Assembly: GCF_004348545.1 (NCBI RefSeq)
Contig: NZ_SMKL01000011.1
Span: 1-64,000, forward strand
DNA length: 64,000 nucleotides
Direction: 5' to 3'
DNA from: Jiangella ureilytica
GTDB lineage: Bacteria > Actinomycetota > Actinomycetes > Jiangellales > Jiangellaceae
The stretch's first letter is position 1. Each line of letters opens with the position of its first letter. A program made the position numbers and the translations under genes. Of the stretch, positions 9,079 to 60,557 are shown piece after piece. The notes below the pieces were generated by a model. That model was given only the letters and a program-made list of their open reading frames with translations. It made no database searches and was not told where the DNA came from.

Positions 9079-9245
9079 GTGATGGCCTTTCGCTCGTGGA
9101 GTCGACGGCGATGTCAGGACCGGATCCTCACCGTTCCATATGAAATGTCATCAGCGTGGCGACTGAACGGCAGTTGAAGACTCACGCTGGTGACGTCCGC
9201 CGCATGGCGGGTGCGCAGCATCACCTGACCGGCAGTCCGCCGCCG

Positions 9246-10175: not shown

Positions 10176-10185
10176 GCGGCGTTCC

Positions 10186-10698
10186 TCATGCGGGCGTCCA
10201 GTCGCAGCGGGCCGGGGTCCACGTCGCGCTCATGAGGTCCAGCGCGCGGTCGCCCAGCGGGTTGACGCCGGGCCCGGCGGCCAGGCTGTGCGCGACGAGG
10301 ACGTGCAGGCACTTGACGCGGTCGGGCATGCCGCCGGCCGAGACCCCGGCGATCTCCTCGACGTGTCCGGCCGCCTCGCGCCGCGCCAGGTAGGACGCGT
10401 GCGCCGCCCGGTAGGCCGCGGCCAGCTCGGGGTCGGCGGTCAGCTCGTCGGTCAGCTCGCGCATGACGCCGACGGACTCCAGCGTCGACGTGGCGGCGAC
10501 GGCGCGCGGGCAGGTCAGGTAGTACAGCGTGGGGAACGGTGTGCCGTCGGGCAGCCGCGGCTCGGTCTCGACGACGGACGGGTGGCCGGCGCCGTCGGGC
10601 CCGCACCTGGCCGCCACCGCACGGACGCCGCGGACAGGGCGGCCGAGCTGCTGGGTGACGGTGTCGAGGTCGGTCTGCGTGGGCGGGATGAGGCTCAC
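10186..10698 (-). CDS. DUF501 family protein
   Basis: A 170-residue cytoplasmic protein of the DUF501 family, which in actinobacteria is nearly always found between the FtsB/DivIC-like gene and ppx. Recognisable features are GTPFPTLYYLTCPRAVA and the Cys/His-containing C-terminal part GMPDRVKCLHVLVAHSLAAG, followed by NPLGDRAL. No function is established. The GTG start overlaps the stop of the upstream septum protein gene as GTGA, indicating coupled translation. Confidence 0.9.
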   Translation of the reverse strand: MSLIPPTQTDLDTVTQQLGRPVRGVRAVAARCGPDGAGHPSVVETEPRLPDGTPFPTLYYLTCPRAVAATSTLESVGVMRELTDELTADPELAAAYRAAHASYLARREAAGHVEEIAGVSAGGMPDRVKCLHVLVAHSLAAGPGVNPLGDRALDLMSATWTPARCDWTPA

Positions 10699-11321
10699 TC
10701 GCCGGTGTCTCCGTCGTCGACCGGTGCCTCGGGGTCGGGCGGCGGGCTGTCGGCGAACGTGACCGACGCCCAGAGCCGCTCGTACCAGGTGCCCTCACCG
10801 GCCGGCGGCAGGCCGTCGGCGGGACCCGAGGTGGTCTCGTCAGGGGCGTCCGGGTCGGGCAGGACGATGTAGCTCTGCTCGCCCGGCAGCACGAACCCGA
10901 GCCGCTCGCGCGCCTGGGCGGCCACGTAGGCGGGGTCCTCCCAGAGCCGCAGCTCCTGCTCGAGCTGCTCGACCGACGCCGTCAGCTCGTCCTGCTCGCG
11001 CTCGAGCTCGACCCGTTCGCGGTGCTGGTCGAACCAGGCCCGCAGCGGGTAGGCGTAGGACACCAGCAGCACCGCCAGCACCAGCGCGAGCACCGCGGCC
11101 CGGCCGGTGACCGAGGGACGGCCGCCCTTGGGCTGCGGGCGCCGCGGCGGCGGTGGGGGCGGCGGACCGTCGGCGGAGTCGGTACGGGGCCGGGCCGCCG
11201 CCGTCGTTCCCCCCTTGGGCGCACGGGCCGCGGGCCGAGCGGCCCGGCCCGCGCCGGGACGCCGCGCCGTGCCAGCGCCCGCCGCGGGGCGGGCGCTGGG
11301 CGAACGACGCGACGTGGCCAC
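10695..11321 (-). CDS. FtsB/DivIC-like septum formation initiator
   Basis: A 208-residue bitopic membrane protein. An Arg/Ala/Pro-rich cytoplasmic N-terminus of about 70 residues leads to one membrane helix (RAAVLALVLAVLLVSYAYPL). A coiled coil follows (QHRERVELEREQDELTASVE), and then the DivIC signature AYVAAQARERLGFVLPGEQS. The C-terminus is acidic and Pro-rich. The family forms the FtsQ-FtsL-FtsB type scaffold of the divisome. It starts nine bases after the eno stop and overlaps DUF501 by four bases. The long basic tail is typical of actinobacterial members. Confidence 0.9.
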   Translation of the reverse strand: MATSRRSPSARPAAGAGTARRPGAGRAARPAARAPKGGTTAAARPRTDSADGPPPPPPPRRPQPKGGRPSVTGRAAVLALVLAVLLVSYAYPLRAWFDQHRERVELEREQDELTASVEQLEQELRLWEDPAYVAAQARERLGFVLPGEQSYIVLPDPDAPDETTSGPADGLPPAGEGTWYERLWASVTFADSPPPDPEAPVDDGDTGE

Positions 11322-30975: not shown

Positions 30976-33204
30976 TCAGTGCTCGAGCTGCGGCAGGCGC
31001 TGCAGCGGCTTCGGGAGCCACCAGTTGCGCTCCCCCAGCAGCACCATGATCGACGGCAGCAGCACGGCCCGGACGATGGTCGCGTCGATGAGGATCGCCG
31101 CGGCCAAGCCCACGCCCATCTGCTTGAAGTCGATGGCGCCGAGCGTCGCGAAGATCGAGAAGACTGCGACCATGACGACGGCGGCGCTGGTGACCACGCC
31201 GGCGGAGCGGATGATGCCGGTGCGGACCGCCTCCCGCGTCGTCATGCCGGCCTTGGCGCCCTCGCGGATCCGGCTGACGACGAAGACGTGATAGTCCATC
31301 GACAGGCCGAACAGGATCACGAAGAGGAACAGCGGCAGCCAGGTGATGATCGCGCCGGTCGACTCGAAGCCCAGCAGCCCCTCGGCCCAGCTGTTCTGGA
31401 ACACCAGCGTGAGCAGGCCGTAGGACGCGGCGACGGAGAGCAGGTTCAGCCCCGCCGCGGTGAGCGCCACCGCCAGCGACCGGAACGCCATCACCAGGAC
31501 GACGATGGTCATGAGCAGCACGAACCCGATGACGATCGGCATCCGGTCGGCCAGCAGGCCGCGGAAGTCGACGTTGCCCGCCGTCATGCCGGTGACGCCG
31601 CTCTCGACGCCGTTCAGGTCACCGAAGGTCGCCGGGACCAGGTCGTCGCGCAGCGTCTGCAGCGACGCCTCGGCGCGGTCGTCGTCGTGCTCGTACGGGA
31701 CGGGGACGACGATCTCGGCGACGGAGCCGTCGGTCGAGTACTCGGCGGTGAGCCCGTCGCTCGCGGCGAACTCCGGGTCGGCGGCGACGGTGTCGCTCAG
31801 CGTCGCGACGGCGGCGTCGACGGAGGTGCGGTCGAGCGGCGAGCCGTCCGCCGTCCAGACGGCGATGTCGTGCGCGGCGCCCTCGGCCGGGAAGGCCGTC
31901 GTGATGGCGTCGTAGGTCTGCACCTCCGGCACGTCCTTGGACAGGTCGGAGACGCCGGGCTGCGAGAGCTTCATGCCGATCGCCGGTGCGGCCAGAGCGA
32001 GCAGCGCCAGCAGGCCCGCCGTCAGCGCCGTCTTCGGGTGCCGCAGCACCGGGCCGAGGATCGCGCGCCACACGCGGGGCTCGCCGCCGTCGCGCCGGCG
32101 CAGCCGCCACAGCAGCGGGATGCGCGGCCGGTCGATCCAGCGGCCGAAGATCGCGAGCAGCGCCGGCAGCGCCGTGACGGAGCCGACGACGGCCACCGCG
32201 ACGACCAGGATCGTGCCCACGGCCAGCGACTGGAAGGTCGCCTCGCCGGCGAAGAACATGCCCGCCATCGCGATGATGACGGCGAGCCCGGACACGACGA
32301 CGGCCCGGCCGGAGGTGGCGGCGGCGACCGCGACGGCGTCCATGGTGCCGCGGCCCTTCTCGCGCTCCTCACGCTCGCGGCGGACGTAGAACAGCGAGTA
32401 GTCGACGCCGACGGCCATACCGACCAGCAGCACGACCGAGGCCAGGATGTCGGTCGACGGAACGACGTACGACGCGAACGCCGACAGCCCCATGGCCGCG
32501 ACCACGGACGACAGCGCCAGCAGCACCGGCACCGCGGCGGCGATCAGCGCGCCGAACACCACGAGCATGATGAGCAGGCTGACCGGCAGCGACAGGTACT
32601 CGGCGCGCTGCAGGTCGTCCTCGTAGACCTTGTCGAGGGCGTCGCCCAGGGAGGCGTCGCCGACCTGACCCACCTCGAGGCTGCCGTCGGCGCCGTCGAC
32701 CACCTGGCCGATCTCGGCGGCGGCCGCGCTCGCGGCGTCCTCCTCCTCGGCGTCGGTGCCCTCGGGGACGTCGAGCGTCACCTCGTAGAGCGCCGCGGTG
32801 CCGTCCTCGGACACCTGCGGCTCGGACACGGCGGTGACACCGGGCGCGGCCCCCAGGTTCGCGGTGAGCGTCGTGACGGCGTCCGATCCGGTGTCGACGG
32901 CGCCGCCGCCGGCGGCCCGGACCAGCACGGACTCCGTGACCGGGTCGTCGAAGTCGGCCTGGATGAGCGCCCTGTCGGCCGCGGCGGAGGCGCCGACCCC
33001 TTGGTCGCCGTCCTCCACCTCCTTCGTGCCGACGGCGCCGCCACCGACGATCGCGGCGGCGACGAAGGCGAGCCAGAGGACGAGGGCCAGCCACTTGTGG
33101 GTCGCGCTCCAGCGGGCGACGCGCACGACGAGGCCGCGGCTGGGCGGCGGAGGTAATGGCGGGGTCGGTGCGGGCGGTCGGTCGAGAGGGAGGGTCGTGG
33201 TCAT
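30976..33204 (-). CDS. MMPL/RND family membrane transporter
   Basis: A 742-residue exporter with the RND layout: one helix, a large extracytoplasmic domain, five or six helices, then a repeat of the same order. Both halves carry the proton-relay motif, VGMAVGVDYSLFYVRRER in the first and ILFGLSMDYHVFVVSRIRE in the second. Mycobacterial MmpL and Streptomyces homologues export lipids or antibiotics. The extracellular loops here are acidic and Ala/Asp-rich. The ATG at 33204 is preceded by GGGATG. No regulator or MmpS partner is adjacent, and the substrate cannot be inferred. Confidence 0.93.
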   Translation of the reverse strand: MTTTLPLDRPPAPTPPLPPPPSRGLVVRVARWSATHKWLALVLWLAFVAAAIVGGGAVGTKEVEDGDQGVGASAAADRALIQADFDDPVTESVLVRAAGGGAVDTGSDAVTTLTANLGAAPGVTAVSEPQVSEDGTAALYEVTLDVPEGTDAEEEDAASAAAAEIGQVVDGADGSLEVGQVGDASLGDALDKVYEDDLQRAEYLSLPVSLLIMLVVFGALIAAAVPVLLALSSVVAAMGLSAFASYVVPSTDILASVVLLVGMAVGVDYSLFYVRREREEREKGRGTMDAVAVAAATSGRAVVVSGLAVIIAMAGMFFAGEATFQSLAVGTILVVAVAVVGSVTALPALLAIFGRWIDRPRIPLLWRLRRRDGGEPRVWRAILGPVLRHPKTALTAGLLALLALAAPAIGMKLSQPGVSDLSKDVPEVQTYDAITTAFPAEGAAHDIAVWTADGSPLDRTSVDAAVATLSDTVAADPEFAASDGLTAEYSTDGSVAEIVVPVPYEHDDDRAEASLQTLRDDLVPATFGDLNGVESGVTGMTAGNVDFRGLLADRMPIVIGFVLLMTIVVLVMAFRSLAVALTAAGLNLLSVAASYGLLTLVFQNSWAEGLLGFESTGAIITWLPLFLFVILFGLSMDYHVFVVSRIREGAKAGMTTREAVRTGIIRSAGVVTSAAVVMVAVFSIFATLGAIDFKQMGVGLAAAILIDATIVRAVLLPSIMVLLGERNWWLPKPLQRLPQLEH

Positions 33205-33595
33205 GGTGCATCCCGTCGGCAAGATGTCGGTGAGGTCGGCTCTCACTCTCGCCGTGCGGGGATCACGCGGTAACCCGGAAAGCCCCCGATTCGCCCTGGG
33301 GGAATCCCCCGGTTGCGTACGGGGGACATCCCAGAGAAAGACCGCTGACCAGCGGGTTCAGCAGTCGGCCTCACCGCGGCCGACGTCGGGAGGCTTCGTC
33401 CGTGATCGGGCTTCTTCGCGGTCGCCGAGGCGCCGCGAGGGAACACGATCACGGCGGGAGACGAGCGGCCGGTGCCGATCAAACAGCACCTCACTCGCCT
33501 GAGGGCCGCATCGCGGCCCCAAGTCTGCGCCATCCGGTCGGGCGGGGTGGCGTGCACCGCCGCCAGTGAGGACAGCGGCCCAGTGCCGCAAGCGC
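33205..33595. other. Intergenic region with inverted repeats
   Basis: This 391-base region has no gene that I can support. It contains a short G/C hairpin (33295-33312, GGGGGAATCCCCC core) and a 9-bp inverted repeat CCGTGATCG (33400-33408) / CGATCACGG (33446-33454) around a 37-base loop. A minus-strand open frame here has Arg-rich shadow composition. The promoter of the MMPL gene should lie near 33210-33300. Confidence 0.5.
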
Positions 33596-34717
33596 TCAGC
33601 TGTCGGCGGCGATCTCCGCGGAGCGGACGGTGACCGAGGCGATGAACTCCTCGTCGACCTCGTGGCCGAGGCCGGGCGCCGTCGGCACCGTCACGACGCC
33701 GCCGGCGGCGGTGACGGGCGGGGTGACGACGTCGCGCTCGTAGTACTTGTCCGAGGCCGACACGTCGGACGGGAGGGTGAAGCCGGGCAGACTCGACAGC
33801 GCGACGTTGGCGGCCCGGCCGACGCCGAACTCGTGCATGCCGCCGCACCAGACCGGGATGTCGTGCTCGGCCGCGAGGTCGTGGGCGGCCACCGCGGGCC
33901 CGAGCCCGCCCAGGCGCGACACCTTGATGTTGAGCACTCTGAGCGCCCCGAGCACAACCGCCGTGCGCAGGTCGTCGAGGGTGTCGATGGACTCGTCCAG
34001 ACACACCGGCGTCGAGATGTCGCGCTGCAGGGCGGCGTGTGCGAGCAGGTTCCGCGGCGCGAACGGCTGCTCGATCATCGTCAGTCCGTGCTCGTCGAGC
34101 GAACGCAGCGCGCGCACCTCGTCCTCGGACTCGCCGTAGGCGCCGTTCGCGTCGACGTGCAGCAGCAGGTCCGGGAACGCCGCCCGCACCGCCCGCACCG
34201 GCTCGACATCCCAGCCGGGGGCGATCTTCAGCTTCGCCCGCGGGTAGCCGGCCTCGACGTGCTTGGTGACCTCGGCGAGCAGGTCGCCGATGGTCGGCTC
34301 GATGCCCAGCGACACCCCGGCCGTGACCGTCGCACGGGTGCCACCGAGCGCCGTCGCCAGCGACACCCCGCCCGACAGCGACCACAGCGCCCATGCCGCG
34401 ATGTCGACGCCGGCCTTGGCGAACTGGTGGCCGCGCACGTTCGCCCACAGCCCGGCCACCTCGGCGGGGTCGTCCCACCGCACCCCGGCGACAGCCGGCA
34501 GCAGGTACCGCTGGGCCACCAGCCAGCAGGTGTCGGCCGTCTCGGGCGAGTAGTACGGGTCCGAGGCCGACGCGATCTCGCCCCAGCCGACGGCGCCGGA
34601 TTCGTCCGTGAGCCGCACCAGGATGTGGTCGAGGTGGTCCTTGGCGTGCGAGCTGGTGCGGAACCGGTGCACCAGCGGCAGCCGGACCAGGTGCAGCGAC
34701 GCGTGGGTGACGCGCAC
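33596..34717 (-). CDS. N-acylamino acid racemase / o-succinylbenzoate synthase family enzyme
   Basis: A 373-residue enolase-superfamily enzyme of the NSAR/OSBS group. The catalytic acid-base Lys pair lies in AKLKIAPGWDVEPVRAVR and LNIKVSRLGGLGPAVA, and the metal ligands in LHVDANGAY, MIEQPFAPR and VCLDESI. The lid region and PVWCGGMHEFGVGRAANVAL and PSDVSASDKYYERDVV are typical of NSAR/OSBS proteins. Context favours racemisation of N-acyl amino acids over menaquinone synthesis: no men genes are present, and a GNAT and an M20 amidohydrolase are linked. GTG at 34717 follows GGGAGGAC, two bases after the SIS gene stop. Confidence 0.87.
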   Translation of the reverse strand: MRVTHASLHLVRLPLVHRFRTSSHAKDHLDHILVRLTDESGAVGWGEIASASDPYYSPETADTCWLVAQRYLLPAVAGVRWDDPAEVAGLWANVRGHQFAKAGVDIAAWALWSLSGGVSLATALGGTRATVTAGVSLGIEPTIGDLLAEVTKHVEAGYPRAKLKIAPGWDVEPVRAVRAAFPDLLLHVDANGAYGESEDEVRALRSLDEHGLTMIEQPFAPRNLLAHAALQRDISTPVCLDESIDTLDDLRTAVVLGALRVLNIKVSRLGGLGPAVAAHDLAAEHDIPVWCGGMHEFGVGRAANVALSSLPGFTLPSDVSASDKYYERDVVTPPVTAAGGVVTVPTAPGLGHEVDEEFIASVTVRSAEIAADS

Positions 34718-34719
34718 GG

Positions 34720-35361
34720 TCAGTCCTCCCAGTAGAGGTCGAGGTCGCGGGCCAGCCGGTCGCGCTCGGCCAGCCGGCGGCGGGCGCCCTTGGCGCTGGC
34801 GGTGGTGAGCGTGGCGAGCAGGTGCACGACGGCGGCGACGGCGGTGGGCGAGTCGGTGAACGAGGCGCTGGCGGTCGGCACGACGATCGACTGGCCGGCG
34901 GCGGCGACGAGGGGCGACTCCGCGGTGTCGGTGACGGCGACGACGGCGCCACCGGCGGCCGCGAACCGCTCGGCCAGAGCGACGGTTTCGCGGCGGTACC
35001 GGCGCAGCGAGACGGCCACCAGTACGTCGGTGTCGCGCACGTCGGCCAGTACGTCGACGTGGCGGACCAGGGTGCCGTCGATCAGCGTGACGTTGGCCAG
35101 GCCGGCCGAGAGATCGACCGCGAGCAGCGACGCGTAGGCGAAGGACTTGCCGGTGCCGGCGACGAACCGCCGCCGGGCCGCGACCACCGTCGCCGCGGCG
35201 GCGGCCACGGAGCCGTCGGCCGCGACCCGCTCGAACGCGTCGGCCAGCGTCCGCGTCTCCTGCTCGATGACCCGTGCCTGCAGCGCCGCCGCCGACGACG
35301 GCCGCTGCAGCCGCGCACCGAACCGCTGCGACTGGCTCGAGAGCTGTTCCGCCGCGCTCAT
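34720..35361 (-). CDS. SIS-domain protein (RpiR-like without HTH)
   Basis: A 213-residue protein. After a helical N-terminus it has a sugar-isomerase (SIS) fold: RRRFVAGTGKSFAYASLLAV, DTDVLVAVSLRRYRRETVAL and AVVAVTDTAESPLVAAAGQS. The arrangement matches the sensor half of MurR/RpiR regulators, but the N-terminal helix-turn-helix is missing, so it may bind a ligand or partner rather than DNA. It overlaps the GNAT gene by four bases (ATGA) and precedes the racemase gene. Its place in this locus suggests a sensory or isomerase role, not established. Confidence 0.75.
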   Translation of the reverse strand: MSAAEQLSSQSQRFGARLQRPSSAAALQARVIEQETRTLADAFERVAADGSVAAAAATVVAARRRFVAGTGKSFAYASLLAVDLSAGLANVTLIDGTLVRHVDVLADVRDTDVLVAVSLRRYRRETVALAERFAAAGGAVVAVTDTAESPLVAAAGQSIVVPTASASFTDSPTAVAAVVHLLATLTTASAKGARRRLAERDRLARDLDLYWED

Positions 35362-36101
35362 GCGGCCGCCCGGACGAAGCGGTAGACGGCGGTGGAGTCG
35401 GAGACCCGGACACAGGAGGTGGCGACCGAGCCGCCGCCGACGAGCCGATCGATGACGGCGCCCAGCTCACGCCGCTGCTCGGGCCCGGCCTCGAGCGGCA
35501 CCGGCAGCCAGGTGTCGGGGCCGGCCGCACGGGGCCGGAGCCAGCCGGCGGGGTCGGCGAGGTCGGCGGGCAAGCCGGCCGGCGCCGGGGCCTCGCGGGC
35601 GCGCCGCTCGTCGTCGAGGTCCCAGTCGACGATCAGGCGGTCGGTGCCGGGGAGCCCGAAGAAGTCGGCCCGGAACCAGCGGCCGACCGCGCCGAGCACG
35701 TCGAAGTTGAAGTGCGCGTTGCGGGTGACGGCCGGGTCGAACGACCAGCGCATGCGGGTCTGCCCACCGGCCAAGGCGACCTCGCGCTGGCCGCGCTTGA
35801 GCGCCCGGCCGAGGCCCAGCCCCTGGTGCTTCGCGTCGACCACGGCGGCCTGCGAGTAGTGGTAGACCTCGCCGCCGTCGATGCCGACGAACCCGTACGC
35901 GAACGCGACCAGCTCGCCGTCGTCGCCCCGGACGCCGACCACCGAGCCCCCGTTGGCCGCCAGCGACGCGAGCAGCCGCGGGTTCACCGAGTGGGCGGGG
36001 TCCTGGTAGCCGAAGACCTCGCGGTAGAGGCGGGCGGCACCGGCGAGATCGGCCGCGGACGTGAGCCGCTCGACGCGCGGACCATACGGTTCATAACTCA
36101 T
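35358..36101 (-). CDS. GNAT family N-acyltransferase (candidate amino-acid N-acyltransferase)
   Basis: A 247-residue acyltransferase. The acyl-CoA loop is VVDAKHQGLGLGRALKRGQR, following the strand VYHYSQAAVVD. Conserved parts LYREVFGYQDPAHSVNPRLL and TRMRWSFDPAVTRNAHFNFD are typical of the long GNAT proteins found beside NSAR/OSBS-type genes. In the Geobacillus pathway described by the Gerlt group, a GNAT succinylates D-amino acids before racemisation; I infer a similar role here. ATG at 36101 has GGTGG upstream; a TTG two codons earlier is less likely. It is the first gene of a three-gene minus-strand operon. Confidence 0.8.
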   Translation of the reverse strand: MSYEPYGPRVERLTSAADLAGAARLYREVFGYQDPAHSVNPRLLASLAANGGSVVGVRGDDGELVAFAYGFVGIDGGEVYHYSQAAVVDAKHQGLGLGRALKRGQREVALAGGQTRMRWSFDPAVTRNAHFNFDVLGAVGRWFRADFFGLPGTDRLIVDWDLDDERRAREAPAPAGLPADLADPAGWLRPRAAGPDTWLPVPLEAGPEQRRELGAVIDRLVGGGSVATSCVRVSDSTAVYRFVRAAA

Positions 36102-36136
36102 CGACAAGCCACCCTATTGACGACCACATGACAAGG

Positions 36137-36152
36137 ATACGAAACGTATAGT
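36137..36152. promoter_or_regulatory. Palindrome and -10 between the GNAT and M20 genes
   Basis: A perfect inverted repeat ATACG-AAA-CGTAT (36137-36149) overlaps the hexamer TATAGT (36147-36152), which ends 6 bases before the M20 ATG. The M20 transcript is therefore probably leaderless and controlled by a protein bound at the palindrome, which could also affect the divergent GNAT promoter. Confidence 0.6.
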
Positions 36153-36158
36153 GGCGAG

Positions 36159-37289
36159 ATGAACGGTACCGCACCTGATCTCGGCGCGATGCTCGGCCGG
36201 CTCGAGTCCTACGTCCGGCACGAGACCCCCACCGGCGACGCCGAGCGCATCGACGCGCTCGGCGAGATCCTGCTGGCGCGGCACCGCGAGCTGGGCGCGA
36301 CGGTGCGCCGAGTGCCGTCGGCCGCGGGCGACCACCTGGTCATGGAGCACCCGGGCCGGGGCGCGAAGGCCGGCGGGGCGCCGGTGCTGTTCCTCGGCCA
36401 CCACGACACCGTGTGGCCGGCCGGCCGGCTCGACGGCCCGATGCCGTGGCGGGTGGACGACGGCGTCGCGTACGGCCCGGGCGTCTACGACATGAAGAGC
36501 GGCCTGGTCGTCATGGAGACCGCGCTCGAGCTGGCACGCGACGGTGGCGCGGGACACCCGCCCGTCCGCGTCGTCGTCGTGGCCGACGAGGAGGTCGGGT
36601 CGCCCACGTCGGCCGCGCTGGTCGCTGAGGCCGCATCGGACGCCGTCGCCGCCCTGGGGTTCGAGTCGCCGCACCCGGACGGCTCGTTGAAGTCGGGCCG
36701 GCGCGGCAGCACGCGGCTGCGGCTCGGGGTCGAGGGGGTCGAGGCGCACGCCGCGCTGGACCCCGAGGCCGGCGTCTCCGCCGTCGACGAGCTGGTCGAC
36801 CAGCTCATCCTGGTGCGCTCGATCGTCCGGCACGCACCGGGGAACGTGCTGTGCAACGTCGGCACCGTCGCCGGCGGCGGCCGCACCAACGTCGTCCCGG
36901 CGGCGGCGTACGCGGACCTCGGCCTGCGATTCGCCGACGCCGAGTCCGAGCGGGTGGTCCTCGACGGCGTGACGTCGCTGCGGGCGATCCGGTCCGGCGC
37001 GACGGTGACCGCCGAGGTCATGTCGCGGCGGCCCACCTGGGCGCCCGGCGAGGCGACCGCCGGGCTGCTCGCCACGGTGCGCCTGGCGGCGGCGAGCGTG
37101 GGCCAGCGGGTCGACGGCGCGCCGGCCGCGGGCGGCGCCGACACCAACACCACCGGCTCGCGGGGAGTTCCGACGCTCGACGGGTTCGGCCCGCGCGGCG
37201 CCGGTGCGCACGCCACCCACGAGCAGGTCGTCGTCGCGTCGCTGGCCGAGCGCGCCCGGCTCGTCGCCGCGGTCCTCGCCGCGCTCTAG
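36159..37289 (+). CDS. M20 family metallopeptidase / N-acyl-amino acid amidohydrolase
   Basis: A 376-residue zinc enzyme of the M20 family. Metal and catalytic motifs are complete: FLGHHDTVWP (His and Asp), GPGVYDMKSG (bridging Asp), VVVADEEVGS (Glu-Glu), and at the C-terminus GPRGAGAHATHEQV. The lid domain contains EAHAALDPEAGVSAVDELVD. The closest well-known types are carboxypeptidase G2-like and N-acyl amino acid hydrolases. Divergent from the GNAT-SIS-racemase operon, it could release L-amino acids from their N-acyl form. Start at ATG 36159 is supported by TATAGT just upstream and no ribosome-binding site. Confidence 0.9.
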   Translation: MNGTAPDLGAMLGRLESYVRHETPTGDAERIDALGEILLARHRELGATVRRVPSAAGDHLVMEHPGRGAKAGGAPVLFLGHHDTVWPAGRLDGPMPWRVDDGVAYGPGVYDMKSGLVVMETALELARDGGAGHPPVRVVVVADEEVGSPTSAALVAEAASDAVAALGFESPHPDGSLKSGRRGSTRLRLGVEGVEAHAALDPEAGVSAVDELVDQLILVRSIVRHAPGNVLCNVGTVAGGGRTNVVPAAAYADLGLRFADAESERVVLDGVTSLRAIRSGATVTAEVMSRRPTWAPGEATAGLLATVRLAAASVGQRVDGAPAAGGADTNTTGSRGVPTLDGFGPRGAGAHATHEQVVVASLAERARLVAAVLAAL

Positions 37290-37824: not shown

Positions 37825-37841
37825 ATTGTGCTCCGCACAAT
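37825..37841. promoter_or_regulatory. Operator-like palindrome upstream of MMPL gene
   Basis: Perfect 7-bp inverted repeat ATTGTGC-TCC-GCACAAT. TATGAC begins at its last base and could be a -10. It lies 60 bases before the MMPL start. The regulator is not encoded next to it. Confidence 0.6.
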
Positions 37842-37900
37842 ATGACAGTTACTCTCAGAAAGGAGGAGCGGTCTACATCGAGTCACTGCCGGAGGCTGTC

Positions 37901-40102
37901 GTGGCAACCCTGCTGTACCGCATCGGGCGGTTCTCGTACCGCAGCCGCCGCCTGGTCGGGGCGATCTGGCTGGCGGTGGTCGTGGTCGCCGGCGTCGCGG
38001 CCACCACCCTGTCCAACCAGACGTCGGACTCGTTCGCGATCCCCGGCACCGAGTCGCAGCAGGCGTTCGACCTGCTGCAGGAGCGGTTCCCGGGCTCCTC
38101 GCCCGACGGCGCGGCGGCCCGGCTGGTGTTCGCGGCGCCCGGCGGCGGCGCCGTCACCGATCCCGCGCACGAGCGGGCGATCACCGCCGCCGTCGCCGAG
38201 ATCGAGGCCGGCCCGCAGGTCGCCGAGGTCGTCGACCCGTTCGCGGCCGGCCTGGTGTCCGAGGACGGCCGCATCGCGCTCGCCGAGGTCACCTACGCCG
38301 TCGACTTCCTGTCGCTGGAGCCGCAGACCCGCGAGACGCTCGATGACGCCGCCGAGACCGCGCGCCAGTCCGGCCTGCGGGTCGAGCTGGCCGGCACCGC
38401 CGTCGAGCCGGAGCCGGAGCTGGGCAGCGAGCTGCTCGGCATCGCCGTCGCCGCGCTGGTCCTGGTCATCACGTTCGGGTCGCTGATCGCGGCCGGCATG
38501 CCGCTGCTGACCGGCATCGTCGGCGTGGGCGTCGGCGTCGCGCTGGTCACCGCCGCGACGGCGTTCGTCGACCTCAGCACCATCACGCCGATCCTCGCCA
38601 CCATGCTCGGGCTCGCCGTCGGCATCGACTACGCGCTGTTCATCGCCTCGCGCTACCGGCACGAGCTGGGCGCGGGCGTCCCCGGCGACGAGGCGGCCGG
38701 CCGGGCCATCGGCACCGCCGGCACCGCAGTCGTGTTCGCCGGGCTCACCGTCATGATCGCGCTGGCCGGGCTGTCCGTCGCGGGCATCCCGATGCTGACT
38801 GAGATGGGACTGGCCGCCGCCGTCACGGTGGCGATCGCCGTCGTCATCGCGCTGACCCTGCTGCCGGCGCTGTTCGGCTTCGCCGGACGGCGGATGCTCG
38901 CGCGCCTGCCGGGGCTGCGGTCGCGGGCCACCGACCCGGAGGACGACGACGCACCGCGCCTGAGCCGCCGCTGGGCCGGGTTGGTCACCAGACACCCGGT
39001 CGTGGCGCTGACGGCGAGCGCCGCCGGACTCGCGGTGCTCGCCCTTCCGGTGCTGGACGTCCGGTTCGGACTGCCCGACGAGGGCACCTACCCGGCTCAC
39101 ACCACGCAGCGGCAGGCCTACGACCTCACCGCCGAGGGGTTCGGGCCGGGCTTCAACGGCCCGCTCCTGGTGGTGGTCGACGGCGGCAGCGGCGGCGCCG
39201 AGGCGGCGGCCGCGTCGGTGGCGGAAGGGCTGCGCAATCTCGACGGCGTCGCGCTCGTCACGCCGCCGGAGCCGGACGAGTCCGGGCGGACCGCCGTCGT
39301 CACCGTCGTTCCCGAGAGCGGCCCGTCGAGTACGCAGACCGAGCGGCTGGTCGAGGCGATCCGCTCGTCGCTCGGCGACGGGAACGCGCCGGCCGGTGCG
39401 CGCGTGCTCGTCACCGGCACGACAGCGCTGTTCATCGACTTCTCCGAGCGCATGGCGGGCGCCCTGCTGCCGTACCTGCTGGTGGTGGTCGGGCTGTCGT
39501 TCGCACTGCTGATGCTGGCATTCCGGTCGCTGGTCGTGCCGCTGAAGGCGACACTCGGGTTCCTGCTGACGATGGCGGCGACGTTCGGCGCGATGGTCGC
39601 CGCGTTCCAGTGGGGCTGGCTGACCGGCATCGGCGTCGAGGAGGTCGGCATGATCAACAGCATGCTGCCGATCCTCATCGTCGGCATCGTGTTCGGCCTG
39701 GCCATGGACTACGAGGTGTTCCTGGTGACCCGCATGCGCGAGGCGTTCGTCCACGGTGAGCCGGCGGTCCGCGCGGTCACGACGGGGTTCGGCCACGGCG
39801 CCCGGGTGGTCGCCGCGGCGGCGATCATCATGATCAGCGTGTTCGGCGGGTTCGTGCTCAACGAGGCGGCCGACGTCCGGCAGATCGGCTTCGCATTGGC
39901 CGTCGCGATCGCCGTAGACGCGTTCGTGGTGCGCATGACGATCGTGCCGGCCGTCCTCGCTCTGGTCGGCGACCGCGCCTGGTGGCTGCCGCGCCGGCTG
40001 GACCGGCTGCTGCCGAACGTCGACATCGAGGGCGCCCGGCTCACCGACGCGCTGGCCGATCAGAACCGCCAGCGGGTCGCCGTCAGTCCGTCGGGACCGT
40101 AG
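37901..40102 (+). CDS. MMPL/RND family membrane transporter
   Basis: A 733-residue exporter with two RND repeats. The proton-relay motifs are GLAVGIDYALFIASRYR and IVFGLAMDYEVFLVTRMRE, and the extracytoplasmic loops follow the first helix of each half. I chose GTG at 37901 because GGAGG lies 6 bases before it and the first helix begins soon after. A second, stronger site (AAAGGAGGAG, 37859-37868) lies further up but has no standard start codon at the right distance in this frame. An operator-like palindrome precedes it. The 3' end overlaps the convergent PNPOx-like gene by 43 bases. Substrate unknown. Confidence 0.92.
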   Translation: MATLLYRIGRFSYRSRRLVGAIWLAVVVVAGVAATTLSNQTSDSFAIPGTESQQAFDLLQERFPGSSPDGAAARLVFAAPGGGAVTDPAHERAITAAVAEIEAGPQVAEVVDPFAAGLVSEDGRIALAEVTYAVDFLSLEPQTRETLDDAAETARQSGLRVELAGTAVEPEPELGSELLGIAVAALVLVITFGSLIAAGMPLLTGIVGVGVGVALVTAATAFVDLSTITPILATMLGLAVGIDYALFIASRYRHELGAGVPGDEAAGRAIGTAGTAVVFAGLTVMIALAGLSVAGIPMLTEMGLAAAVTVAIAVVIALTLLPALFGFAGRRMLARLPGLRSRATDPEDDDAPRLSRRWAGLVTRHPVVALTASAAGLAVLALPVLDVRFGLPDEGTYPAHTTQRQAYDLTAEGFGPGFNGPLLVVVDGGSGGAEAAAASVAEGLRNLDGVALVTPPEPDESGRTAVVTVVPESGPSSTQTERLVEAIRSSLGDGNAPAGARVLVTGTTALFIDFSERMAGALLPYLLVVVGLSFALLMLAFRSLVVPLKATLGFLLTMAATFGAMVAAFQWGWLTGIGVEEVGMINSMLPILIVGIVFGLAMDYEVFLVTRMREAFVHGEPAVRAVTTGFGHGARVVAAAAIIMISVFGGFVLNEAADVRQIGFALAVAIAVDAFVVRMTIVPAVLALVGDRAWWLPRRLDRLLPNVDIEGARLTDALADQNRQRVAVSPSGP

Positions 40103-55231: not shown

Positions 55232-56116
55232 TCACGCACCGGCCGGCTCACCGCGGACGGCGGCGTAGGTCTGGCCGAGCGCGGTGATGGAGCGGTCGTA
55301 CGAGGCTTGCGCGACGCCGGTGAACAGGCAGTCCGCCACCATGAGCTGCGCGATCCGGCTGCCCAGCGCGCCCGGGCGCAGCCGTGACTCGCGCGCGGCG
55401 GTGGTGAGGACGATGTCGGCGGCGCGGGCCACCGGGGCGTCGGCATGGTTCGAGATCGCGATGGTGGTCGCGCCGGCGCGGGCGGCCAGGGTGAGGAACC
55501 GGACGGTGCCCGCCGTCGCGCCCGTGTGGGAGACGCCGACGGCCACGCAGTCGGCGTCGAGGACCACGGCCGAGGTCCAGGCGGAGTGCGGGTCGGCCCA
55601 CGTCAAGGCGGTGCGGCCGATGCGCACCAGCTTCTGCTGCAGGTCCAGGCCGACGAAGGCGCTCGCCCCCACGCCGAACAGGTCGACTCTGCGGGCGGCC
55701 GCGACCGCCGCCACCGCGCGCGCCAGCGCGTCGAGGTCGAGCGCCTCGGCGGTGTCGGAGATGGACAGGGCCTCCTTGCGCGCGACCTTCGCGACGATGT
55801 CGGACAGCGAGTCGTCGCGGTCGATGTCGCCGGACGCGGCGGCGTCGCCGGCGTGGGCGAACGTCTCGCGGGTGACCTCGCGGGTGAGGTCGAGCCTCAG
55901 CTCCTGGTGCCGCCGGTAGCCCAGCCGCCGGTAGAAGCGCACCACCGTCGTGGTCGACGTCTCACCCTCGGCGGCCAGGCGGTGCATCGACCAGCCGGCC
56001 ACGCCCACCGGGTCCGCCAGGATCGCCCGGGCCACCCGCTGTTCCGACGGCGGCAGCGCCGGCAGGGCGGCACGGATGTCGACCAGGATCCTGCGGGCGG
56101 ACGGCGTCGTCGGCAT
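55232..56116 (-). CDS. MurR/RpiR family transcriptional regulator
   Basis: A 294-residue regulator. The N-terminal helix-turn-helix is VAGWSMHRLAAEGETSTTTV followed by VRFYRRLGYRRHQELRLDLT. The SIS domain (RRVDLFGVGASAFVGLDLQQ, CVAVGVSHTGATAGTVRFLT, TTIAISNHADAPVARAADIV) binds phosphosugars. It is divergent from an operon with murQ and anmK. A MurNAc-6-phosphate sensor like MurR of E. coli is therefore likely. ATG at 56116 has AGAAGGAG upstream. Confidence 0.93.
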   Translation of the reverse strand: MPTTPSARRILVDIRAALPALPPSEQRVARAILADPVGVAGWSMHRLAAEGETSTTTVVRFYRRLGYRRHQELRLDLTREVTRETFAHAGDAAASGDIDRDDSLSDIVAKVARKEALSISDTAEALDLDALARAVAAVAAARRVDLFGVGASAFVGLDLQQKLVRIGRTALTWADPHSAWTSAVVLDADCVAVGVSHTGATAGTVRFLTLAARAGATTIAISNHADAPVARAADIVLTTAARESRLRPGALGSRIAQLMVADCLFTGVAQASYDRSITALGQTYAAVRGEPAGA

Positions 56117-56175
56117 CGGGCTCCTTCTCGTCGGGTGATCGCGTACCAACTTTACGCATGCGAGCTCTCAGACGT

Positions 56176-56189
56176 ATGGTCTATACCTG
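56176..56189. promoter_or_regulatory. DasR-like (dre) site upstream of the muropeptide operon
   Basis: ATGGTCTATACCTG contains TGGTCTATACC, close to the DasR consensus (A(C/G)TGGTCTAGACCA(C/G)T) with one change at the centre and one after ACC. It is 28 bases before the binding-protein ATG. DasR is a GntR regulator of aminosugar use in actinomycetes. Confidence 0.5.
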
Positions 56190-56216
56190 TCTGACGAACG
56201 AACGAGGAGGACGGGC

Positions 56217-57779
56217 ATGTCGAACGGTCTGCGCATGACGGCGATCGGCGCCGTTGTCGCGATGTCCCTGGCGCTCGCCGCGTGTTCCGACGCGCCCCGC
56301 GACGAGGCGGGCTCCGGCGGCGACGCCGGCGCGTCCGAGGCGCAGCCCGGCGGCGACCTCGTCATCGGGGTGACGTCGGACCCGGACACGCTGTTCCCCT
56401 GGCGCGCCACGCAGTTCCAGGCCGTGCACCTGCTCGGCAACGTCTACGGCACGCTCACCGAGCTCGACGAGAACCTCGAGGTCGTCCCCGGCCTGGCGGA
56501 GTCCTGGGAGGTGTCGCCCGACGGTCTCACCGTCACCTTCCAGCTGCGCGAGGACGTGACGTTCGCCGACGGCAGCGCGTTCGACTCCGAGGACGTCGTC
56601 TTCTCGCTCGAGTCCATCCGCGACGAGGCGACCGCCGCCGTGGCGGCCAGCACGCTCGCGCGGGTCACCGCCGTTGCCGCTCCCGACCCGAGCACCGTCG
56701 AGCTCACGCTCAGCACGCCCGACTCCGGTCTGTTCGCCAACCTCGCGACCGTGAACCTGGCGATCCTGTCCTCGGACGACACCGAGGAGGCGCTGAACAC
56801 CCAGCCCAACGGCACCGGGCCGTTCACGTTCGAGGCGCGCGTGCCCAACCAGTCGGTCACGCTGGCCCGCAACGACGCCTACTGGGGCGAGCCGGCGCTG
56901 CTCGACACCGTCGAGTTCCGCGTCATCCCGGACGAGTCGTCCATCGTCTCCGCGATGCAGTCCGGCAACGTCCAGATGGCCGTGTTCGACGACCCGCTGG
57001 TGGCCGACACCGCCACGAGTCCGGACCTCACCGTCACCGAGACGCCGCAGCTCAGCTACCACGTCCTGCAGCTCAACGCGCGCCGCGGCCCGCTGGCCGA
57101 CGTCAACGCGCGGCTGGCGATCCAGTGCGCCATCGACCGCCAGCAGGTGCTCGACACCGCCGCGCTGGGCGAGGGCGAGGTCACCGGGCCCATCACGTCG
57201 CCGGCCTACAAGTCCGACCCCGACGCCCGGCCCTGCCCCACCCGCGACCTGGACCGGGCCCGCGAGTACCTCGCCGAGGCCGGGCTGCCCGACGGGTTCG
57301 CGCTCGACACCATCGTGTCGCAGGGCGAGTACGCCACCTCGGTCAACGAGGCGCAGAACCTGCAGGCGCAGCTCGCCGAGGTCGGCATCGAGCTGACGTT
57401 CACGCCGCTGGAGTCCGGCGCCTACGTCGACCGCTGGATCGCCGCCGACTTCGACGCCGCCGTCGCCCTCAACGGCGGCCGCCCGGAGCCCGACGGCATG
57501 TACGGCCGCTACTTCACCAGCGACGGCAACCTCAACCAGGTCGCCGGGTACAGCTCGCCGGAGCTGGACGAGCTGTTCGCGCAGGGCCTGCAGGCCACCG
57601 ACGAGGACGAGCGCAAGGAGATCTACGACCAGGTCGCCCGGCACCTCGAGGACAACGCCGCCTGGGTGTGGCTGTTCACCAGCTACACGTACACCGTCAC
57701 CACGAACACGCTGCAGGGCTTCGTCCCGATGGCCAACGGCTCGCTGCAGTACCTCCGGACAGCCGGCTTCACCGGCTGA
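56217..57779 (+). CDS. Oligopeptide-type solute-binding lipoprotein (family 5)
   Basis: A 520-residue binding protein of the OppA/DppA family. The lipobox is LALAACSD after the signal MTAIGAVVAMSLALAACSD. Family marks include GGDLVIGVTSDPDTLFPWRA, LTVTFQLREDVTFADGSAFD and RLAIQCAIDRQQVLDTAALG. The linked murQ and anmK suggest that the ligand is an anhydromuropeptide or MurNAc-peptide rather than a plain peptide. ATG at 56217 follows GAGGAGGA. It heads an operon of at least seven genes. Confidence 0.94.
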   Translation: MSNGLRMTAIGAVVAMSLALAACSDAPRDEAGSGGDAGASEAQPGGDLVIGVTSDPDTLFPWRATQFQAVHLLGNVYGTLTELDENLEVVPGLAESWEVSPDGLTVTFQLREDVTFADGSAFDSEDVVFSLESIRDEATAAVAASTLARVTAVAAPDPSTVELTLSTPDSGLFANLATVNLAILSSDDTEEALNTQPNGTGPFTFEARVPNQSVTLARNDAYWGEPALLDTVEFRVIPDESSIVSAMQSGNVQMAVFDDPLVADTATSPDLTVTETPQLSYHVLQLNARRGPLADVNARLAIQCAIDRQQVLDTAALGEGEVTGPITSPAYKSDPDARPCPTRDLDRAREYLAEAGLPDGFALDTIVSQGEYATSVNEAQNLQAQLAEVGIELTFTPLESGAYVDRWIAADFDAAVALNGGRPEPDGMYGRYFTSDGNLNQVAGYSSPELDELFAQGLQATDEDERKEIYDQVARHLEDNAAWVWLFTSYTYTVTTNTLQGFVPMANGSLQYLRTAGFTG

Positions 57780-57793
57780 CCGGGGCGGACGGC

Positions 57794-58765
57794 ATGCTCG
57801 ACACTCTCGTCCACAACGGCGTCGTCCGCCGCGTCGCCCAGTCCGTGTTCACGCTGTTCGGCGTGGCCGTCGTGGTGTTCGTCGTACTCCGGGCCATCCC
57901 GGGCGACCAGATCACCGCCAACCTCGGCACCGAGGCGGCCGCGCTGACACCGGACCAGCGGGCCGCCCTGGAGTCGTACTACGGGCTGGACCAGCCGCTG
58001 CTCACGCAGTTCTTCGGCTGGCTGGGCAACATCCTGACCGGGAATCTCGGGTTCTCGGCGCGGGCGCAGACCAGCGTCGCCGACCTGACGCTGCAGGCGC
58101 TGCCGGTGACGTTCGAGCTGGCGGTGCTGTCGATCCTGCTGGCGCTGGTCATCGGGATCCCGCTGGGCATGCTGTCGGCGTCGCGGCCGAACTCCGCGCG
58201 CGACGCCACCGGCCAGGTCGTGGGGCTGGCCGGGCTGTCGGTGCCGGCGTTCCTGCTGGCCACGACGCTGACGTCGGTGCTCGCGTCGCGGTTCGGGTTC
58301 AACCCCAACGGCGAGCCGTTCGCGCGGTTCTTCGACGACCCGCTGCTGAACCTGCAACAGATGCTGCTGCCGTCGCTGGTGCTCGGGTTCGGCGTCGCCG
58401 CGCCGATCCTGCGGACCACCCGGACCGCGGTCCTCGAGGTCGCCTCCGACGACTTCGTGCGGACCGCACGGGCCAAGGGCGTCCCCGCCCGGCGGCTGCA
58501 GATCCGGCACGTGCTGCGCAACGCGCTGGTGCCGATCGCCACCATGACCGGCCTGCAGTTCGGCTACCTGCTGGGCGGCGCGGTGGTGGTCGAGCAGATC
58601 TTCTCCATCCCCGGCATCGGCCGGCAGGTGCTGCTGGGCATCCAGCAGAACGAGTACGCCCTGGTGCAGAGCACCGTGCTGGTCATCGCGCTGGCGTTCG
58701 TCCTCGTCAACCTGCTCACCGACCTGCTGTACCGGATCATCGACCCCAGGGTGCGCGCCGCATGA
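57794..58765 (+). CDS. ABC transporter permease, DppB/OppB type
   Basis: A 323-residue permease with six helices. The start RRVAQSVFTLFGVAVVVFVV is followed by the typical ESYYGLDQPLLTQFFGWLGN and GNLGFSARAQTSV. The EAA loop is VRTARAKGVPARRLQIRHVL and the C-terminus contains PGIGRQVLLGIQQNEYALVQ. It starts 14 bases after the binding protein and overlaps the second permease by four bases. Confidence 0.95.
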   Translation: MLDTLVHNGVVRRVAQSVFTLFGVAVVVFVVLRAIPGDQITANLGTEAAALTPDQRAALESYYGLDQPLLTQFFGWLGNILTGNLGFSARAQTSVADLTLQALPVTFELAVLSILLALVIGIPLGMLSASRPNSARDATGQVVGLAGLSVPAFLLATTLTSVLASRFGFNPNGEPFARFFDDPLLNLQQMLLPSLVLGFGVAAPILRTTRTAVLEVASDDFVRTARAKGVPARRLQIRHVLRNALVPIATMTGLQFGYLLGGAVVVEQIFSIPGIGRQVLLGIQQNEYALVQSTVLVIALAFVLVNLLTDLLYRIIDPRVRAA

Positions 58766-59649
58766 CCACCACCGACCAGATCGCCGACGTCGCGCCCACC
58801 CGGGTCAGCGCGCGTGGACTGCTGCGTGCCCTGACCCGCAGCCGCGTAACGCTCGCCGGCCTGGTGATCACTGGCGTGCTCACGATCGTCGCCGTGCTGG
58901 CGCTCCTCGGCGCGCTGCCGCACGACCCGCTCGTCCAGGACCCGCCCAACCGGCTGCTGGCGCCGTCGGCCGAGTACTGGTTCGGCACCGACCAGTTCGG
59001 CCGCGACGTCTTCTCGCGGGTGGCGGCGGGCGTGGGCAACTCCGCGCGGATCGCCGCGGTGGCGGTGGCCATCGCCGCCGTCATCGGGACGGCCGCCGGA
59101 CTGGTCGCGGGCTTCTACCGGGGCTTCTCCGACACGGCCATCGGCGGCGTCACGAACATCCTGTTCGCCTTCCCGCCGCTGCTGCTCGCGCTGGCGCTCG
59201 CATCGGTCTTCCAGCGCACCTGGTTCACCGTGGCGGTGGCCATCGCCATCGTCTACACGCCGATCTTCGTCCGGGTCACGCGCGGGCCGGTGCTGTCGCT
59301 GCGCGAGATCGACTACGTCCGCGCGGCGGTGAGCACCGGGCAGAGCCGGCCGGCGGTCATGCTCAAGCACGTCCTGCCGAACATCACGTCGATCATCATC
59401 GTGCAGGTCACGCTGTCGTTGTCATGGGCCGTGCTCACCGAGGCGTCGCTGAGCTTCCTGGGCCTGGGCACGCCGCCGCCGGCGCCGTCGCTGGGCTCGA
59501 TGATCTTCGAGGCGCGCACGCTCGTCACCGTGGCGCCGTGGACGATGCTCGCCCCCGGGCTGGTGGTCGTGGCGCTCATCGCCGGGCTGAACCTGCTCGG
59601 CGACGGGTTGCGCGACCGGTACGACCGCCGCGGCCGGGGCGCGCGATGA
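58762..59649 (+). CDS. ABC transporter permease, DppC/OppC type
   Basis: A 295-residue permease. [20 protein letters not shown] is the DppC hallmark, and the EAA loop is [40 protein letters not shown] followed by PPAPSLGSM is conserved. It forms the channel with the preceding permease. The stop overlaps murQ by four bases, which ties uptake to intracellular processing. Confidence 0.95.
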
Positions 59650-60557
59650 GCGACGGGGACGGGCGCACGCCGCCGGACACCGAGGCGATCGACCCGCGCT
59701 ACGCCGCCATCGAGGAGGCGTCGGTCGCCGACCTCGCCCGGCTCATGAACGACGCCGACCGGACGGTGCCGGCCGCGGTCGGCCGCGAGCTGCCGCGGAT
59801 CAGCGCCGCCATCGAGGCCATCGTCGAGCGGGTCGGTGCCGGCGGCCGGCTGGTCTACGCCGGCGCCGGCACGTCGGGCCGGCTCGGCGTGCTCGACGCC
59901 TCGGAGTCGCGCCCGACCTTCAACGTCGGCCCCGACGAGGTGCTCGCCGTCATCGCCGGCGGACCGGACGCCATCGCCGGTGCCGTGGAGGGCGCCGAGG
60001 ACGACGCCGCGGCCGGGGCGCGGGCGATGACCGACGCCTGCATCGGTCCCGCCGACGTCGTCGTCGGCCTCGCCACCAGCGGACGGACGCCGTATGTGCT
60101 CGGGGCGGTCCGCCGGGCCCGCGAGCTCGGCGCGTTGACCGTCGGCGTCTCCTGCAACCGCGGCGCCGAGCTGAGCGCCGACGTCGACCACCCCATCGAG
60201 GTGGTGGTCGGGCCGGAGGTCCTGAGCGGCTCCACCCGGCTGAAGGCCGGCACCGCACAGAAGCTGGTGCTCAACATGATCTCGACCATCACCATGGTCC
60301 GGCTCGGCAAGACCTACCGCGGCCTCATGGTCGACCTGCGGGCCACCAACGACAAGCTGCGCGGGCGGGCGACGCGGATCGTGTCGGCACTCACCGGGGC
60401 CGGCCCGGACGAGGCCCGGGCCGTGCTCGCGACCTCCGGGTACGACGTCCGCGCCGCCGTGGTGCGGCTGCGGCTCGGCCTCGACCACGACACCGCCACC
60501 GAGCGGCTGCGCGCCGCCGGCGGCCGGCTGCGCGACGCACTGGGAGAACACGCATGA
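59646..60557 (+). CDS. murQ: N-acetylmuramic acid 6-phosphate etherase
   Basis: A 303-residue SIS-fold lyase that removes D-lactate from MurNAc-6-phosphate, giving GlcNAc-6-phosphate. The active-site stretch [20 protein letters not shown] and the MurQ hallmarks [40 protein letters not shown] and [20 protein letters not shown] are all present. Its overlap with the transporter genes shows that the imported solute contains MurNAc. GlcNAc-6-phosphate, the product, is also the inducer of DasR, consistent with the dre-like site. Confidence 0.97.

Follow-up and report, generated by a model that had tools for sequence, protein, structure and literature searches.

The stretch of DNA analyzed here, referred to as the window, comprises 64,000 nucleotides of a Jiangella ureilytica contig (NZ_SMKL01000011.1), and its positions 33596 to 37289 hold four adjacent genes for a racemase, a SIS-domain protein, a GNAT acyltransferase, and an M20 amidohydrolase (Table 1). 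An earlier note on this DNA had proposed such a locus and had placed its products in the NSAR/OSBS, SIS, GNAT, and M20 families; all four open reading frames (ORFs) were found at these positions, and profile matches agree with the families, the GNAT match lying barely above its cut-off. Only 2 bases lie between the racemase and SIS genes, the SIS and GNAT genes overlap by 4 bases, and the M20 gene is divergent from the GNAT gene, with 57 bases between the two start codons. The palindrome ATACGAAACGTAT, which the note had described as a link between the two divergent units, does lie between them; beyond that description, it is also operator-like and usually one of a phased pair. It overlaps the hexamer TATAGT, which the Jiangella sequences retain in an alignment of the intergenic region and which reads as the probable -10 element of an M20 gene whose mRNA is likely leaderless. 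All 13 orthologous regions retrieved from the same family have the four genes side by side. The nearest named locus is that of Jiangella muralis, whose racemase is 90% identical.

Table 1. Features of the four-gene locus and of a second gene cluster in the window
Feature	Position	Strand	Evidence or remark
Racemase, NSAR/OSBS-family N-acylamino acid racemase, 373 aa, GTG start	33596-34717	-	TIGR01928, MR_MLE_C
SIS-domain protein, RpiR type without helix-turn-helix, 213 aa; probable regulator component	34720-35361	-	Pfam SIS
GNAT acyltransferase, 247 aa	35358-36101	-	Acetyltransf_6 (weak)
M20 metallo-amidohydrolase, carboxypeptidase G2-like, 376 aa	36159-37289	+	Peptidase_M20 and M20_dimer
Operator-like palindrome 1, ATACGAAACGTAT	36137-36149	.	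27.0 bits on motif built from locus set
Operator-like palindrome 2, two mismatches, within GNAT codons 2-6	36084-36096	.	16.8 bits
TATAGT, probable -10 of M20 gene, six bases 5' of ATG	36147-36152	+	Sequence reading
MurR/RpiR-type regulator	55232-56149	-	Peptidoglycan-recycling cluster
Oligopeptide-type substrate-binding protein	56217-57779	+	Peptidoglycan-recycling cluster
Two permease-like ORFs, between substrate-binding protein and MurQ			Peptidoglycan-recycling cluster; sequence reading
MurQ	59424-60557	+	Peptidoglycan-recycling cluster
AnmK	60554-61729	+	Peptidoglycan-recycling cluster
ORF with GNAT and class C-type serine hydrolase domains	61567-63348	+	Peptidoglycan-recycling cluster

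Relatives of the locus were taken as the best 80 of 288 loci from a racemase scan of genome contigs, all of them titled Actinobacteria. By tblastn, all four genes were present in 64 of the 80, and the M20 gene was divergent in 62 of those; in the other two (L085 and L092) it lies downstream on the same strand. Eight loci, seven from Nesterenkonia and one from Microlunatus, matched only the GNAT and the racemase, and four (three Actinoallomurus and one Streptosporangiales metagenome-assembled genome) lacked the SIS gene alone. Matches to M20 were missing in L112 and L124 and to the GNAT in L076, while L123, on a contig of 3.6 kb, had the SIS and racemase genes only. Among 22 genomes of the Jiangella order, this one included, 14 have the racemase at 76% identity or more; the best match in six others is a second-type racemase (45 to 49%), and two incomplete genomes gave a distant match only (37 to 39%).

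Further analysis of the loci showed that the palindrome goes with the SIS gene. The pattern ATACGNNNCGTAT, taken from the window, was searched in an interval reaching from 400 bp upstream of the GNAT start to 30 bp downstream of it. Of 68 SIS-bearing loci, the two with no GNAT match (L076 and L123) were left out, and L124, with less than 400 bases upstream, was counted. The palindrome was found within one mismatch in 57 of the 66 remaining loci, compared to 0.38 expected from dinucleotide shuffles, and outside Jiangella in 52 of 61 (0.36 expected), whereas none of the 12 SIS-less loci had it. A good example of this is Nesterenkonia, where the only SIS-bearing locus of eight (L112) carries two copies and the seven SIS-less loci carry none within one mismatch. 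Mapped on the racemase tree, the presence of the SIS gene shows three changes, and the palindrome follows the gene in an average of 2.8 of 3 independent pairs. The earlier note had treated the SIS protein as an added part; the gene is indeed a part of the locus, but it is more than an addition, its presence going with that of the palindrome. A chance palindrome was rejected, given two exact matches in the genome and 57 of 66 loci against 0.38 expected.

The site is concentrated at the locus but not private to it. In the 6.35-Mb genome, ATACGNNNCGTAT occurs exactly in two places, one being palindrome 1, and within one mismatch in 12, compared to 4 for a reversed control; on its own contig, there is no copy within one mismatch other than palindrome 1. 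A search of 19 further genomes, of which two lack SIS, gave 25 exact copies (0 to 3 per genome), 14 of them in the locus by coordinates, compared to 6 in all for the reversed control. Six of the 11 exact sites outside the locus were inspected by reading ORFs for a regulon elsewhere, and no related genes were seen. Among neighbors of the locus, motif copies of 18 to 28 bits precede an oligopeptide substrate-binding protein (SBP) gene in five loci, three from Microbacterium and two from Pseudoclavibacter (with an exact match in one), and in the Cellulomonas locus L072 an exact copy precedes a class IV aminotransferase gene. The other exact site in the J. ureilytica genome lies at C97:49942-49954 (L137 5001-5013), between a gene reading as an FAD enzyme and another gene; of three further genomes of the genus that were searched, two contain the same 13 letters.

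A second copy, which the note does not mention for the window, usually accompanies the first. With a motif built from sites within one mismatch and a second site required to reach 7 bits, two sites were found in 51 of 67 loci, the window included; the 16 loci below this threshold were left out of the spacings. Palindromes 1 and 2 of the window lie 53 bp apart, as do the pairs in all six Jiangella loci scored, the window among them, and over all loci the spacings were 53, 64 to 66, 75 to 77, 85 to 89, 99, 107, 110, 132, and 143 bp. For the 30 distinct genus-spacing values, the resultant length was 0.85 at a period of 11.0 bp and 0.67 at 10.5 bp, and none of 5,000 random sets was as regular over 10.0 to 11.2 bp, a result inflated by shared ancestry. 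When each of the nine spacing classes was counted once, the resultant was again 0.85 at 11.0 bp, and 9 of 20,000 random sets were as regular over the same range. DNA loops in living bacteria have a repeat near 11 bp. Because the palindrome goes with the SIS gene and the second copies are spaced in phase, the locus appears to have a regulator of its own, one that includes the SIS protein and may loop DNA. The co-occurrence near the GNAT start and the phasing of the second copy at about 11 bp are what is new here.

The SIS protein itself matched Pfam SIS at 55 bits, and the domain was present in 38 of 38 aligned relatives, whose start codons were chosen by the analyst. The Pfam helix-turn-helix (HTH) domain HTH_6 was matched neither by the window protein nor by any of these relatives, while the RpiR regulator in the same window matched it at 42 bits; the note's description of a SIS protein without a DNA-binding domain is thus borne out. 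There is also little room for an HTH: counted from the GNAT stop to the position matching SIS residue 1, the gap is shorter than 50 codons in 63 of 66 loci (the exceptions are L082, L085, and L092). An AlphaFold (AF2) model gave a confident SIS fold (mean predicted local distance difference test [pLDDT] score, 89.6), and the closest solved folds were 3sho, the SIS domain of an RpiR regulator, and then RccR. Among the basic residues, R13, R17, R63 to R65, K72, R121, K191, R195, R196, and R200 reach at least 90% conservation or full invariance across 38 sequences. The loop that reads S-H-T-G-A-T in the window's RpiR protein corresponds, by a sequence reading and not a structural alignment, to S-L-R-R-Y-R in the SIS protein, and because of this its ligand may be other than a plain sugar phosphate. 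In pneumococcal NanR, according to the portion of PMC12713135 available, the residues holding the ligand phosphate include Ser135, Ser179, Ser181, and Thr184.

Two of the exceptions show what may be a retained or regained N-terminal domain. At their N termini, the SIS proteins of L085 and L092 are extended by about 75 residues, and the two extensions are 62% identical to each other; the two proteins sit together inside the HTH-less majority on the tree, so that the extension may have been retained or regained. No HTH_6 was found in the extension by Pfam. Its AF2 models, built from the two sequences bearing it, are helical with a pLDDT of about 54 to 75 per block over residues 1 to 80, and by Foldseek the extended relatives aligned with full-length RccR and NanR over 262 to 292 columns at a root mean square deviation of 10 to 16 Å, which is at most suggestive of an HTH. 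Searches for a separate partner returned little: in the J. ureilytica genome, no close full-length RpiR paralog was found (the next best match had an expect value [E] of 0.0136), and a query with the N-terminal 80 residues of the extended relative found no credible split-off HTH gene in the loci or in seven genomes, the J. ureilytica genome among them (best E in the genomes, 0.012). At E 0.01, two HTH_6 genes were found in the J. ureilytica genome, one in the window at 55871-56089 beside an N-acetylmuramic acid (MurNAc) cluster and one on C74. The former was not taken as the palindrome's regulator, its contig having no other ATACGNNNCGTAT within one mismatch. A SIS-NSAR fusion considered in L083 was dropped; the two lie in different frames.

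The racemase and the M20 enzyme have intact catalytic residues. The racemase scored 292 bits against TIGR01928 (cut-off, 200.65) and also matched MR_MLE_C, and its closest solved relatives are the N-acylamino acid racemases of Deinococcus and Amycolatopsis (1R0M, 1SJA, and 4A6G), which belong to the same family. The two catalytic lysines and three metal ligands (K164, D189, E216, D241, and K265) are present in every one of the 81 clade rows and of the 15 references, and R268, the arginine after the second lysine, is present in all 81 clade rows; the Deinococcus enzyme shares all of these. The references are 14 second-type paralogs of this order and the Deinococcus enzyme, and thus represent few independent lineages. 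The M20 enzyme has carboxypeptidase G2 (CPG2; 1cg2 aligned) as its best solved relative, and H81, D111, E144, E145, E169, R291, and H351 are invariant in 65 of 65 rows; these include the residues that serve as metal ligands and catalytic glutamate in CPG2. For the GNAT, no solved relative was found at E 0.1, but it matches the GNAT of a second NSAR locus (34% identity, E 1e-15). This second NSAR-GNAT-M20 set lies in the same genome and has a racemase 48% identical to that of the window, next to a PucR regulator and a gene with S9 peptidase and class C-type serine hydrolase domains. The second-type loci L049 to L054, which have PucR, carry the S9/serine hydrolase gene in four of six cases and a related serine hydrolase in the other two; none of the six matched the window SIS protein or had the palindrome within one mismatch.

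The NSAR, GNAT, and M20 genes thus occur together, as in Geobacillus kaustophilus, where Sakai and colleagues are said to have found that such enzymes convert D- to L-amino acids. The likeness is one of enzyme class: the same three classes are encoded together, but here the M20 enzyme is CPG2-like, its gene is divergent, and a SIS protein and paired operator-like sites are added. The three-step reading of the earlier note (acylate, racemize, deacylate) is partly supported, by the gene set, the intact catalytic residues, a separate menC gene, the second set, and, in some relatives, neighbors of D-amino-acid type. It carries over less well where the M20 enzyme resembles CPG2 and where the racemase clade has residues of its own, and because these residues differ from the references, the substrates of Sakai's pathway are not to be assumed. 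The regulatory part has its likeness in the RpiR/MurR family (MurR, NanR, RccR, and 3sho), with which the SIS protein has the C-terminal SIS fold in common, unlike them lacking the N-terminal HTH_6; palindromes are present at the locus, their binding by the SIS protein being putative. In the available part of PMC12713135, RpiR proteins form tetramers, and paired sites are proposed for Escherichia coli MurR, as at the window locus, with a tetramer bridging two adjacent sites. In Pseudoalteromonas, the accessible text of PMC9537276 has the RpiR repressor OngR controlling a D-aminoacylase-like pathway with the deacetylase OngB, a relative of an amidohydrolase encoded near some of the loci. Such RpiR-type control of a D-amino-acid-like N-acyl pathway is what is proposed here, although no racemase is named in that text and the window locus has no deacylase of the OngB fold. 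Among openly licensed papers, none was found that joins these genes or ties an HTH-less SIS protein to an operator.

Taken together, the locus is best read, with a probability of roughly 0.55, as an actinobacterial set that salvages D-configured amino acids, or acids resembling them, and is regulated locally by way of the SIS protein and the paired sites. The GNAT would N-acylate the amino acid, the NSAR-type racemase would interconvert the N-acyl-D and N-acyl-L forms via its two lysines, and the CPG2-like M20 enzyme would strip the acyl group from the L-form. The RpiR-derived SIS protein, having no HTH, would sense a small ligand and, alone or with a DNA-binding partner, control two same-face operator copies between the M20 and GNAT-SIS-NSAR units, where tetramer-mediated looping would probably shut both promoters. 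Each ingredient has precedent, because bridging by a MurR tetramer has been proposed and an RpiR repressor controls a D-aminoacylase-like pathway. However, a number of points weigh against this reading. First, neither an HTH_6 domain in the SIS protein nor a separate HTH partner was found by the searches of loci and genomes. Second, the link between palindrome and SIS gene is imperfect: 9 of 66 SIS-bearing loci match only when two mismatches are allowed, as do 2 of the 12 loci without SIS; for the palindrome within one mismatch, the tree shows eight changes of state, five of them unmatched by SIS; three independent pairs are too few for significance; and two of the 11 exact copies outside the locus are in a SIS-less Actinoallomurus genome. 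Third, the nine spacing classes do not fit a period of 10.5 bp (resultant, 0.45; p about 0.16). Finally, the GNAT is a marginal Pfam match (23.3 bits against Acetyltransf_6; cut-off, 22), and the clade-specific racemase residues leave the substrate to be inferred.

These residues also favor a variant with the same three steps, in which the substrate is polar or anionic (D-glutamate or D-aspartate) or an amino-sugar acid (2-amino-2-deoxy-aldonate) instead of an ordinary hydrophobic D-amino acid, an alternative that is unlikely yet a serious contender. With a separating position defined by one residue in at least 90% of the clade and in at most 10% of the references, 39 positions separate the two, although at several of them the Deinococcus enzyme has the clade's residue. 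S23, H24, K26, H31, and H295 are present in 81 of 81 clade rows and S50 in 80, compared to F23 (15 of 15), G24 (15), E26 (13), V31 (13), L295 (15), and A50 (14) in the references; at the places of S23, H24, and H295, the Deinococcus enzyme thus carries F, G, and L. By analogy with related structures, residues 23 to 31 would form the 20s loop, and several of the clade-specific residues presumably lie near the substrate. One neighbor protein, the amidohydrolase of L065, also points this way: its first match among solved structures is an N-acyl-D-glutamate deacylase (3gip, 309 bits), followed by an amidohydrolase without given function (280), a D-aminoacylase (249), and OngB (216 bits). OngB itself offers a precedent: in the parts of PMC12017989 and PMC9537276 available, it is described as related to D-aminoacylase and specific for N-acetyl-glucosaminate, and its cluster includes an RpiR repressor. 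Against this, the references span few lineages (one order plus one Deinococcus enzyme), and no sugar kinase or aldolase was noticed among the neighbor clusters, most of which were not family-searched.

The regulatory half of the preferred reading meets two challenges. It is also rather unlikely, though well worth weighing, that an unlinked conventional HTH regulator binds the palindrome and that the SIS protein is an enzyme or a protein-level modulator unrelated to DNA. The lack of an HTH in the SIS protein, the failure to find an HTH partner encoded nearby, and the 11 of 25 exact site copies outside the locus would all agree with this, and SIS folds also occur as enzymes. However, the SIS gene and the palindrome co-occur, also within Nesterenkonia (one locus with both and seven with neither), and two relatives have the N-terminal extension, modeled as helical and alignable to full-length RpiR proteins. 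The opposite possibility, that the HTH-less SIS protein is itself a sequence-specific, loop-forming repressor of ATACGNNNCGTAT pairs, is quite unlikely; it would contact DNA by a surface other than an HTH, such as the conserved N-terminal arm with its arginines, and sense an N-acyl amino acid or amino-sugar acid. If true, it would be a new mode of gene control by an RpiR-derived protein. A SIS protein that lacks an HTH yet co-occurs with two phased sites poses a concrete puzzle of regulation.

As for direction, salvage is preferred to a set that runs in reverse or both ways and makes D-amino acids. The GNAT would then acylate L-forms, the racemase would equilibrate them, a D-aminoacylase-like enzyme would free the D-form for the wall or signaling, and the M20 enzyme would recycle the L-form. 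A D-aminoacylase-like amidohydrolase gene does lie near 29 of the 80 loci, on the racemase strand in 28 and on the opposite strand in L117, and the one compared (that of L065) is nearest D-specific deacylases; moreover, the acylase chosen sets the L- or D-product of NSAR/acylase pairs, by the available text of PMC7431475. However, none was found in the window or in the stretches of the other 51 loci (some cut by contig ends), and the M19 dipeptidase and oligopeptide SBP neighbors look catabolic; this direction is decidedly improbable. These two genes and a class C-type serine hydrolase gene occur near 7 of the 80 loci each. An NhaC-like permease gene lies near 20 and a class IV aminotransferase gene near 18, the nearest models for the latter being aminodeoxychorismate lyase, below their cut-offs. 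In the Microbacterium locus L111, one ORF (9041-10861) contains both M19 membrane dipeptidase and class I glutamine amidotransferase domains.

The earlier note had raised the question of whether another gene encodes o-succinylbenzoate synthase. A dedicated actinobacterial menC lies on another contig (C83; 429.8 bits, cut-off 288) and menD on a third; therefore, the racemase need not serve menaquinone synthesis, and an OSBS-only role is disfavored. That it is the o-succinylbenzoate synthase of menaquinone synthesis is extremely improbable with menC so far above its cut-off and no men gene among the recurrent neighbors that were family-searched, even though the NSAR/OSBS family is promiscuous and the best curated model for the racemase bears that name.

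The natural roles of NSAR enzymes are known for few members, and a conserved actinobacterial four-gene set with its own operator-like pair is a tractable natural context for the question of their substrates; NSAR enzymes are also used in biocatalysis, as stated in the available text of PMC7431475. Two further features of the surroundings were seen. MMPL-family transporter genes lie on both sides of the four-gene locus, at 30976-33246 and 37826-40102 of the window; both are present in 9 of 11 same-genus regions, and the remaining two regions, cut by contig ends, have one each. Further along, a peptidoglycan-recycling cluster occupies 55232-63348 of the window (Table 1).

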